Source: Myxococcales bacterium
GTDB taxonomy: Bacteria > Myxococcota > UBA727 > VGSZ01
Direction of reading: 5' to 3'
Assembly: GCA_023248635.1 (NCBI GenBank)
Contig: JAHFED010000024.1
Location: 1 to 64,000 of the forward strand
Length of the DNA: 64,000 nt
Below the pieces are notes generated by a model that saw nothing but the letters and a program-made list of their open reading frames with translations, searched no databases and was not told the origin of the DNA. The stretch's first letter is position 1. The number at the start of each line of letters is the position of its first letter. Made by a program: the position numbers and the translations under genes. Shown here in pieces: positions 2,054-50,767 of the stretch.

Positions 2054-2486
2054 TGCTTTGCGCCGTGCCAACGGCGCAAAACAAGAGACACTTGATCCGT
2101 GCCAACGGCGCAAAACAGGAAGCACTTTGAGCCGTGCCAACGGCGCAAAACAGGAAGCACTTTGCGCCGTGCCAACGGCGCAAACAGGAAGCACTTTGAG
2201 CCGTGCCAACGGCGCAAACAGGAAGCACTTTGAGCCGTGCCAACGGCGCAAAGCAGGAAGCACTTGGAGCCGTGCCAACGGCGCAAAACAGGAGGCACTT
2301 AAGCCGTGCCAACGGCGCAAAGCAGGAAGCACTTTGAGCCGTGCCAACGGCGCAAAGCAGGAGGCACTTGAGCCGTGCCAACGCGCAAAGCGGGAGGCAC
2401 TTGAGCCGTGCCAACGGCGCAAAGCAGGAGGCACTTGAGCCAACGCGCAAAGCGGGAAGCACTTGGGCCGTGCCAACGGCTCAAAT
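2054..2486. repeat. Type B hairpin array, about 13 units
   Basis: Tandem array, period 34-35 bp: arm TTTGAGCCGT or TTTGCGCCGT, loop GCCA, arm ACGGCGCAAA, then a spacer close to rCAGGAAGCAC. Most units here have one A-G mismatch in the stem. Units 10 and 12 are shortened. The array fills the whole gap between the crotonase and the RHS lipoprotein; no gene is seen in it. Confidence 0.9.
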
Positions 2487-30295: not shown

Positions 30296-30602
30296 TCATC
30301 GCCGCCGGGCGCGGGTGTCGACGATGACGGCGTCGTCGATGAATCTGTAGACAATTCACCGACACACGAAGCGCTGTCGGTCAATTCATCGCCGCCAGGC
30401 GATGAACCTATGGAGAATTCACCGACACGCTTTGCGTGTCGGTGAATTCATCGCCGCCAGGCGATGAACCTGTAGACAAGTCACCGACTCGCGAAGCGCT
30501 GTCGGTGAATTCTCTGCCCTCAGGCCGGGCGGCCAATTCATCGCCGCCAGGCGATGAACCTGTAGACAATTCACCGACACGCGAAGCGCTGTCGGTGAAT
30601 TC
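30296..30602 (+). repeat. Type A array with an inserted type D block
   Basis: About four type A units in the order TTCATCGCC-GCCA-GGCGATGAA, linker CCTGTAGACAA, then TTCACCGACA / TGTCGGTGAA. The first unit is degenerate, one linker reads CCTATGGAG, and a type D block (30507-30539) is inserted between two units at a GAATTC junction. It fills the 30279-30705 gap; no gene is seen in it. Confidence 0.9.
30507..30539 (+). repeat. Type D block within a type A array
   Basis: Core CTGCCCTCAGGCCGGGCGG joined on both sides to type A hairpins through GAATTC and AATTC. Confidence 0.85.
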
Positions 30603-32065: not shown

Positions 32066-32171
32066 TTTGCGCCGTGCAAACGGCGCAAAGCAGGAAGCAC
32101 TTTGCGCCGTGCAAACGGCGCAAAACAGGAAGCACTTTGCGCCGTCCAAACGGCGCAAAACAGGAAGCACT
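32066..32171. repeat. Type B hairpin array, 3 units
   Basis: Three perfect hairpins TTTGCGCCGT / ACGGCGCAAA with loops GCAA, GCAA and CCAA (instead of GCCA) and spacer rCAGGAAGCAC. It is immediately followed by the type C array. Confidence 0.9.
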
Positions 32172-32434
32172 TCAAGACGCGCCAGCGTCTTGAACCGTCA
32201 CAACTTCAAAGCGCGCCAGCGTCTTGAACCGTCACAACTTCAAAGCGCGCCAGCGTCTTGAACCGTCACAACTTAAAAGCCGTCAGACCTTCAAGACGCG
32301 CCAGCGTCTTGAACCGTCACAACTTCAAGACGCGCCAGCGTCTTGAACATCCAAACTTCAAGACGCGCCAGCGTCTTGAACATCCAAACTTCAAGACGCG
32401 CCAGCGTCTTGAACATCCAAACTTCAAAGCGACG
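32171..32434. repeat. Type C hairpin array, 7 units
   Basis: Seven hairpins with arms TTCAAGACGC or TTCAAAGCGC and GCGTCTTGAA, loop GCCA. Spacers are CCGTCACAAC in the first part and CATCCAAAC in the last part; two partial units are present (near 32273 and 32423). The array ends at the stop codon of the minus-strand kinase. Types B and C together fill the 32033-32435 gap. Confidence 0.9.
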
Positions 32435-35284: not shown

Positions 35285-35326
35285 TTCCTCGTCCCGTTGG
35301 CGGTGCCAAGCTGCATCCTCCCGCCA

Positions 35327-35386
35327 CGCCGCCAGGCGATGAACCTGTAGACAGTTCACCGACACGCGAAGCGCTGTCGGTGAATT
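35327..35386 (+). repeat. Type A two-hairpin repeat
   Basis: Order hairpin (GCCAGGCGATGAA arm; left arm partly lost), linker CCTGTAGACAG, then TTCACCGACA / TGTCGGTGAA. Directly joined to a type B array. Confidence 0.85.
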
Positions 35387-35590
35387 TGAGCCGTGCCAAC
35401 GGCTCAAACCATCGGCACTTTGAGCCGTGCCAACGGCTCAAACCATCGGCACTTTGAGCCGTGCCAACGGCTCAAACCATCGGCACTTTGAGCCGTGCCA
35501 ACGGCTCAAACCATCGGCACTTTGCGCCGTGCCAACGGCGCAAAGCAGGAAGCACTTTGAGCCGTGCCAACGGCTCAAAGCAGGAAGCAC
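35387..35590. repeat. Type B hairpin array, 6 units, two stem versions
   Basis: Four units TTTGAGCCGT / ACGGCTCAAA with spacer CCATCGGCAC, one unit TTTGCGCCGT / ACGGCGCAAA and one TTTGAGCCGT / ACGGCTCAAA with spacer GCAGGAAGCAC. All have loop GCCA and perfect stems. The A/C change in the left arm is matched by a T/G change in the right arm. Confidence 0.9.
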
Positions 35591-35657
35591 TTCATCGCCG
35601 CCAGGCGATGAACCTGTAGACAATTCACCGACACGCGAAGCGCTGTCGGTGAATTCT
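35591..35657 (+). repeat. Type A two-hairpin repeat
   Basis: Complete unit: TTCATCGCC-GCCA-GGCGATGAA, linker CCTGTAGACAA, TTCACCGACA / TGTCGGTGAA, ending GAATTC. It follows the type B array. The rest of 35285-35787 shows no gene. Confidence 0.9.
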
Positions 35658-38847: not shown

Positions 38848-39072
38848 GAATTCACCGACAGCGCTTCGCGTGTCGGTGAATCGTCTACAGGTTCATCGCC
38901 TGGCGGCGATGAATTCACCGACAGCGCTGCGCGTGTCGGTGAATCGTCTACAGGTTCATCGCCTGGCGGCGATGAATTCACCGACAGCGCTTCGCGTGTC
39001 GGTGAATTGTCTACAGGTTCATCGCCTGGCGGCGATGAATTGTCTACAGCTTCATCGCCTAGCGGCGATGAA
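38848..39072 (-). repeat. Type A array, about 3.5 units, reversed orientation
   Basis: Units read on the + strand as TTCACCGACA / TGTCGGTGAA, linker TCGTCTACAGG, then TTCATCGCC-TGGC-GGCGATGAA with GAATTC between units. The inner loops alternate AGCGCTTCGCG and AGCGCTGCGCG. The last half-unit carries TAGC in place of TGGC. The array stops five bases before the ribosome binding site of the C45 peptidase gene. Confidence 0.9.
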
Positions 39073-50067: not shown

Positions 50068-50143
50068 AGGTCCTTAGCTCAGTTGGTAGAGCACCGGTCT
50101 CCAAAACCGGGGGTCGAAGGTTCGAGCCCTTCAGGGCCTGCCA
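50068..50143 (+). tRNA. trnW: tRNA-Trp (anticodon CCA)
   Basis: 76-nt cloverleaf. Acceptor stem AGGTCCT / AGGGCCT (one G-T pair), D arm with AGTTGGTAGA, anticodon stem CCGGT / ACCGG with loop CTCCAAA (anticodon at 50101-50103), T arm with GGTTCGAGCC, discriminator G and an encoded CCA (50141-50143). It lies just upstream of secE, the usual location of tRNA-Trp in many bacteria. Confidence 0.95.
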
Positions 50144-50276
50144 GTTTTGCGCCGTAAAGACGGCGCAAACATCGGCACTTTGCGCCGTAACAACGGCGCA
50201 AACATCGGCACTTTGCGCCGTAACAACGGCGCAAAGCAGGAAGCACTTTCGCCGTGCCAACGGCGAACTTCCCCCG
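50144..50276. repeat. Type B hairpin array, 4 units, between tRNA-Trp and secE
   Basis: Hairpins TTTGCGCCGT / ACGGCGCAAA with loops AAAG, AACA and AACA, spacers ACATCGGCAC and GCAGGAAGCAC, then a shortened unit TTCGCCGT-GCCA-ACGGCGAA. It starts one base after the tRNA CCA. Stems are unchanged while loops vary. Confidence 0.9.
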
Positions 50277-50371: not shown

Positions 50372-50767
50372 ATGCGCCAGAAATCGACGTTGGTGGCCCT
50401 GTTCTTTCTCGTCGCCGGGATCATCACCGCCTTCGTGTTGCACCTGGCCTTCGGGTCGCTCTTTGGCGTGATGCGCGTGACCAACCGCCCCATCCTCGGT
50501 GACGGTTTTCCGCTGTCCGCGCTCTTGGGCACGGTGATCGGCCTGGGCGCTGGTGCGGTCTGCTTCTCGCTGCCGCGCACCAAGACCTTGATCGGCGAGG
50601 TGATCGACGAGCTCAACAAAGTGAACTGGCCCGCCTTCGCCGAAACCCGCGTCAACACCGCCGTCGTCATCGTCACCTCGGTGGTTGCCGCCCTGATCCT
50701 CGGCACCTTCGACATCGTGTTCCTGCAGCTGTCGACCTGGCTGTCGACCCAGCAAATCCACCTCTGA
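50372..50767 (+). CDS. secE: Preprotein translocase subunit SecE
   Basis: A 131-aa membrane protein with three helices: TLVALFFLVAGIITAFVL, LLGTVIGLGAGAVCFS and VIVTSVVAALILGTFDIVF. The conserved SecE core is the amphipathic GEVIDELNKVNWPAFAET. This is the longer, three-helix form seen in E. coli, not the one-helix form of Gram-positives. It is a structural partner of SecY in the inner membrane. Position between tRNA-Trp and nusG is the classic one. ATG at 50372 follows AAGGATTCGAC, a moderate binding site. Confidence 0.9.
   Translation: MRQKSTLVALFFLVAGIITAFVLHLAFGSLFGVMRVTNRPILGDGFPLSALLGTVIGLGAGAVCFSLPRTKTLIGEVIDELNKVNWPAFAETRVNTAVVIVTSVVAALILGTFDIVFLQLSTWLSTQQIHL

Follow-up and report, generated by a model that had tools for sequence, protein, structure and literature searches.

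Paired stem changes in a Myxococcales hairpin array mostly mark two sub-families of a short palindromic DNA element

At positions 35385 to 35579 of a 64,000-nt stretch of DNA from a Myxococcales bacterium (contig JAHFED010000024.1, positions 1 to 64,000 of the forward strand; hereafter the window), six short hairpins stand in a row, and one base pair of the stem differs between units on both arms at once. Paired stem changes in repeats are often taken as proof of a selected RNA structure, and an earlier note on this DNA read them in that manner. The locus therefore raises the question of whether pairing has been kept by selection within each unit, or has been inherited with units that were copied whole. 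Our analysis indicates that the paired changes mostly mark two sub-families of a hairpin-forming DNA element of about 33-35 bp, spread in one genome, which is available as a 6.53-Mb draft of 135 contigs with an assembly completeness of 96.7%.

The array and the sequences that enclose it on both sides are composed as follows.

35322..35384, plus strand: D hairpin (TTCATCGCC-GCCA-GGCGATGAA type), spacer and E hairpin (TTCACCGACA...TGTCGGTGAA), left of the B array
35385..35579, plus strand: B-type array of six 24-nt hairpin units, starting at 35385, 35419, 35453, 35487, 35521 and 35556
35580..35590, plus strand: 3' spacer GCAGGAAGCAC of the last B unit, the spacer going with the unit upstream of it
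35591..35653, plus strand: second D-E composite, right of the B array

All six B units have a 10-bp stem and the loop GCCA, and they recur with a period of 34-35. Units 1-4 and 6 carry the arms TTTGAGCCGT/ACGGCTCAAA, with A-T at stem pair 5, and unit 5 (35521-35544) carries TTTGCGCCGT/ACGGCGCAAA, with C-G at the same pair. Pairing is kept in every unit of this array, as the earlier note claimed for it, yet the arms do not alternate as described, there being five A-T units and one C-G unit. The spacers within the array are either CCATCGGCAC, found four times, or GCAGGAAGCAC. The array interrupts a 63-bp D-E-D-E tandem exactly at the E|D joint, and in 20 other cases the E-to-D joint has no spacer. 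The gene adjoining the array is MFS/spermidine-synthase-like, and its relatives are only 30-33% identical.

Hairpins of this sort are common in the window, which holds 44 perfect hairpins with a stem of at least 9 bp, against 1-4 in mononucleotide shuffles. At the Rfam gathering score the matches in the window were tRNA only, with no family for the hairpins. Further arrays in the window are these.

2057..2485, plus strand: B-type array of 11 recognised units; at pair 5, eight have an A.G mispair (TTTGAGCC...GGCGCAAA), two C-G and one G-T
30355..30599, plus strand: E/D/F hairpin array
32066..32413, plus strand: mixed array of three B units (loops GCAA, GCAA and CCAA) followed by seven C units (TTCAAGACGC-GCCA-GCGTCTTGAA)
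38851..39072, minus strand: D-E tandem array with a 63-bp period, in reverse orientation
50146..50269, plus strand: B array of four units, the first loop being AAAG and the next two AACA

The loop variants GCAA/CCAA sit at 32066-32159 and AAAG/AACA at 50146-50236. The mismatch described as fixed at 2054-2486 is predominant there (8/11) without being fixed, while the suggestion that some arrays may be decaying is supported. Three other features of the window were recorded. An E-D composite at 1096-1158 lies inside a predicted gene (157-1221), 63 nt from the gene end; a long GAAGGC tandem repeat at 2650-2858 forms a Gly-Glu run directly after the signal region of an RHS-repeat protein; and within 50068-50269 the B array starts 3 nt past a tRNA-Trp gene, with the SecE gene next at 50372.

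The families were counted in 1.95 Mb of the same genome, in regions picked partly for holding B or C units, so that the sample is biased toward known B/C matches. It contains about 256 B units (TTTG[A/C]GCCGT-GCCA-...), 210 C units, 80 D units, 68 E units and 7 F units. The B, C, D and E families, which are mixed within arrays, are dispersed over 241 arrays with sizes of 1 to 18 units, single units accounting for 108. Of the 218 arrays with clear context, 178 occupy gene gaps, which make up about 10% of the sampled DNA, genes being codon-usage predictions made in this analysis. Matches in the whole genome, both strands summed, number 267 for B (at most 1 mismatch) and 459 for C (at most 3 mismatches). 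Adjacent units run head to tail, with 150 B+B+ and 92 C+C+ neighbour pairs versus about 15 inverted. Among hairpins with at least 9/10 pairs the loop GCCA is found in 344 and any other loop in at most 20, save TGGC, which is the reverse complement of GCCA and represents the same hairpins from the opposite strand; GCCA is retained in 221/256 B and 175/210 C units. Spacers recur as well, GCAGGAAGCAC 55 times and CATCCAAAC 18 times.

Types B and C have in common 6/10 stem positions, the loop, membership of the same arrays and similar spacers (CCATCGGCAC in B, CCATCGGAAC in C). The stems of the two types diverge at four pairs (3, 4, 7 and 10), and since each difference involves both sides, all four are compensated. 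Both arms are entirely of B type in 169 units and entirely of C type in 119, mixtures being few. Type B (at most 1 mismatch) was found in 1/58 genomes tested and type C (at most 2 mismatches) in 1/195 genomes of the phylum, in each case the genome of origin. Viral contigs contained no exact copy of the repeats, and a degenerate B/C pattern searched against GTDB contigs gave, among the matches listed, mostly unrelated sequences. Other palindromes were noticed as well: a further family, CCCTGGGTTCAGTTGAGT-GCAA-ACTCAACTGAATCCAGGG, with several copies (L037:3699, L078:2783, L158:18231 and others); three copies of a 34-nt hairpin with unrelated sequence (GTTCGCC-TTCG-GGCGA), forming an array in G002, a genome of the same genus (L126:7619-7715); and, in contigs L179-L205 of an uncultured Oribacterium MAG, an unrelated bacterium, dispersed mosaics of three adjacent palindromes (GACTTAATGCCGCAGGCATTGAGTC / TTTGTG..GCGCCAGC..CACAAA / AGTATGAAAGGCTTGCCTTTCATACT).

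With several hundred units at hand, covariation between the arms could be counted pair by pair. At B pair 5 the 256 units comprise CG 96, AT 92, TA 6 and GC 3 versus AG 35, CT 9 and others; 197/256 are Watson-Crick, a level reached by 0/500 arm shuffles. Covariation is clear at 1/10 pairs in B (pair 5), and in C it is seen at 2/10, namely 4 and 7. The nine remaining pairs of B show 229 one-sided and 6 two-sided Watson-Crick changes, where 4.4 two-sided changes are expected for independent arms. Type C has 14 two-sided changes where 3.2 would be expected; most are at pairs 4 and 7, and they come from more than 10 different loci. When adjacent B units are compared, pair 5 has 21 two-sided and 38 one-sided changes, and all other pairs together have 1 and 135. 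At least one mispair is present in 153/256 B units (60%).

What remains of the proposed signature of selection on secondary structure is a two-sided change beyond arm-shuffling at B pair 5, but this concerns a single pair among ten, and the state there goes with the spacer. Units with a GCAGGA spacer are CG in 71 cases, AG in 29 and AT in 20, and those with a CATCGG spacer are AT in 35 and CG in 9. Because the pair-5 state tracks the spacer type, two unit lineages explain most of the covariation signal, and their exchange between arrays accounts for the data better than repeated compensation at a single pair would. Units that depart from the rule (AT with GCAGGA, CG with CATCGG) represent either unit exchange or some independent events. 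The earlier note had named two outcomes that would speak against its own reading, paired changes carried by whole units and a lack of significant covariation. The first is largely what the link between pair-5 state and spacer amounts to; as to the second, covariation is absent in B outside pair 5 and present at B pair 5, at C pairs 4 and 7 and in the differences between B and C.

Two-sided change could also arise in a single step and without selection, by a template switch across the hairpin as the DNA is replicated (quasipalindrome correction), in which one arm is copied onto the other. In RNA genes both compensatory changes and loop inversions have been traced to this process (PMC8794818), and the concerted arm changes and loop inversions that it predicts are both seen here. 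The loop is inverted relative to the spacers at three or more loci (L170:2717, L041:16374, L173:158 and 191), and a C unit at L178:15174 has two adjacent pairs changed on both sides. In these C units (L170:2717; L041:16374; L173:158-214) the GCCA loop runs opposite to the spacers on either side, and the pair in L173 lies just before a probable tRNA gene. Since inverted loops are the footprint of a template switch (PMC8794818), part of the two-sided change may be mutational, which suggests that template switching acts too, beside spread. As the main explanation of the paired changes we consider it rather unlikely. Frequent action would erase one-sided changes, yet outside pair 5 these stand at 229 to 6 in B; one array retains A.G mispairs in eight of its units; inverted loops are uncommon, with 10 discordant among 314 oriented units; and, being a mutational process that works on existing repeats, it gives no account of spread and leaves the dispersal unexplained.

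Evidence that the units behave as inserted DNA comes from conserved genes and from the edges of the arrays. One B unit lies in frame in the helicase gene hrpB (L158:9110-9142) and one C unit lies in frame in the B12-binding domain of metH (L085:11442-11474), each of exactly 33 bp or 11 codons. The 11 residues of either unit are exactly absent from two genomes of the same genus (G001 and G002, 66-78% identical) and from further alignable relatives, and the empty metH site in G001 and G002 reads GAC/GGC-TTC-ATC-GGC. Single units were thus inserted at these two sites, which are the only two at which insertion is shown against relatives, and neither belongs to the array at 35385. Tandem units inside genes have a period of 33 in 9/11 cases, as against 65/244 outside genes, where 33, 34 and 35 all occur. 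In-frame D-E composites were also seen at L141:3874-3936 and L145:10540-10665, the genes concerned coding for an EPSP synthase and a lipoyl-ligase-like protein; the EPSP synthase gene, which seems to have a composite of 63 bp, is consistent with insertion but aligns poorly there. Four in-frame B units, giving TLSRANGSNIG repeats, lie in a gene without a Pfam match (L163:1019-1141).

Upstream of the first units of arrays there is no conserved sequence, and the left edge is sharp. On the right, conservation takes in the spacer of the last unit and the TTCAA (C) or TT (B) that follows it, and ends there; in mixed-type arrays each spacer belongs to the unit upstream of it. From the lack of upstream conservation and the conserved 3' spacer it follows that the unit is the hairpin plus its 3' spacer, so that the element is a 24-nt hairpin with 9-11 nt of spacer, 33-35 bp in all. 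The right flank is exactly TTCAA in 27/60 C arrays versus a background of 0.06%. B and C elements join target DNA that is similar to the start of the element itself (TTCAA in C, TT in B), and the TTCAA of the right flank could be part of the element, not of the target. No target-site duplication was seen for B (p = 0.53), and for C the result was borderline (p = 0.05).

A one-sided target without clear duplication is the logic of the IS200/IS605 elements. The B and C elements resemble them in this respect, but the Y1 enzyme was not detected here: a search for the Y1 transposase PF01797 gave no match in the genome of origin, with 5/14 controls positive, and the TnpB zinc-ribbon gave no match in that genome either. 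Ten genes closely flanked by arrays on both sides were tested with Pfam, and no transposase was among them. REP sequences, BIMEs and REPINs are RAYT-associated palindromes (PMC2817692, PMC3116915), and the units might be ordinary REP/REPIN elements moved by a RAYT or an IS200/IS605 Y1 transposase that is absent from the assembly or was recently lost. The resemblance covers size (20-40-bp palindromes), copy numbers in the hundreds, a mostly intergenic and species-specific occurrence, multi-hairpin mosaic arrays and compensatory changes, which have been reported in REPINs (PMC3116915), in addition to the one-sided target and the absence of a B target duplication. We nevertheless regard an ordinary REP/REPIN as unlikely, given that the Y1_Tnp search was negative where controls were positive, that among 466 B/C units the hairpin foot carries a GTAG tag in 1 and a CGTC tag in 10, and that the units are head-to-tail single hairpins with a 3' spacer, not inverted doublets.

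Palindromic repeats that lack both tag and transposase are a kind already known. CGTC repeats without a dedicated transposase have been described, and untagged REP-like families mentioned (PMC3733652); like the units here, these are small stem-loops without a cognate transposase, whereas the present elements have no CGTC tag, grow in tandem next to their target and share the GCCA loop over different stems. Rickettsia palindromic elements (RPE) are inserted in frame within conserved protein genes, have no known mobiliser and measure about 150 bp (PMC10969869). The metH and hrpB units, which are in-frame palindromes absent from relatives, match that description, and the in-frame D-E and four-B cases resemble RPE as well; the elements here, set beside RPE by description, differ in being 33 bp long, mostly in gene gaps and in tandem arrays. 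The units are probably REP/RPE-like mobile palindromes, the array at 35385 being a head-to-tail cluster of an element that would have multiplied in one species.

This reading has to be weighed against one in which every unit is under selection for its RNA (or DNA) secondary structure, which might serve to protect transcript ends, in termination or in regulation, and in which the paired changes are classical compensatory substitutions. The array at 35385 is predicted to fold strongly (z = -9.0 as single-stranded RNA, z = -10.9 as DNA), the array at 2057-2485 doing so more weakly (z = -3.3), and the two-sided changes are real, both at pair 5 of B and at pairs 4 and 7 of C. The density of arrays shows a slight excess in convergent gaps, at 1.41 per kb, over co-directional (1.12) and divergent gaps (0.78). 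However, nine B pairs are without covariation, and the statement that loops vary while stems do not breaks down in the larger sample: the variants GCAA, AACA and AAAG exist, but loops there change no faster than inner stems (inner stem 3.4% and loop 4.3% for B, 4.8% and 4.9% for C). Mismatches overall include 96 G-T and 104 A-C, and this lack of a G-T excess means that there is no sign of one RNA strand tolerating wobble pairs. Orientation to genes is even (B 48 same and 60 opposite, C 45 and 48), arrays also occur inside genes and in divergent gaps, and the units are absent from relatives of the same genus. Selection on each unit is therefore a decidedly unlikely explanation, and palindromy is upheld at the level of the spreading family, not demonstrably as an RNA structure of each copy.

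That the units are bidirectional intrinsic terminators amplified in gene gaps, as stable palindromes in such gaps and one directly after tRNA-Trp might suggest, is very improbable: on either strand the stem has T as its first base and A as its last, so that the hairpin is not followed by a U tract, on which ground the reading was rejected; arrays lie at a median of 52 nt from the stop and 71 nt from the next start, without gene-end bias; and multiple units sit in frame inside genes. A CRISPR has regularly spaced palindromic repeats of similar period, but was dismissed since the spacers here are near-identical repeats, not unique, at many loci and with units inside genes.

If the units are a mobile palindrome, its behaviour may be pictured as follows. 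A new copy would insert just 5' of a TTC/TTT-like sequence (3' of GAA/AAA when the opposite strand is read), and since each unit itself starts with such a sequence, new copies would land beside old ones and tandem arrays would form, within which unequal exchange would alter copy number. The hairpin, as folded single-stranded DNA, may be needed for a copying or insertion step. Were it needed for spread, the founders of successful sub-families would be palindromic, whether A-T or C-G at pair 5, or B versus C. Settled copies would drift and gain mispairs, as in the array at 2057-2485, with pairing inherited through family founders while copies decay, and whole-unit copying or exchange would spread the two palindromic sub-families. 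With palindromic founders and drifting copies, the "compensatory" change at 35385 would be mainly two palindromic sub-families meeting in one array.

A combination of 33-bp size, in-frame insertion and self-adjacent tandem growth was not found described in the literature searched. We put forward, tentatively and as a possibility still open to considerable doubt, that this may be a single-hairpin element of 33 bp, one of the smallest mobile DNAs, which inserts without a Y1 transposase beside its own terminal sequence and in this way forms arrays in tandem and lengthens conserved enzymes by 11 residues; what has to be inherited for spread would then be the shape of the hairpin and not its sequence. 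For several hundred copies in this genome, two palindromic sub-families that are copied whole give the signature of compensation at a single pair, and the remaining pairs of the stem drift. If mobility is confirmed, the family would offer a natural system for how a 33-bp hairpin moves without a recognisable transposase, and also for why such palindromes come to lie in tandem and how enzymes, methionine synthase among them, accommodate short in-frame inserts.
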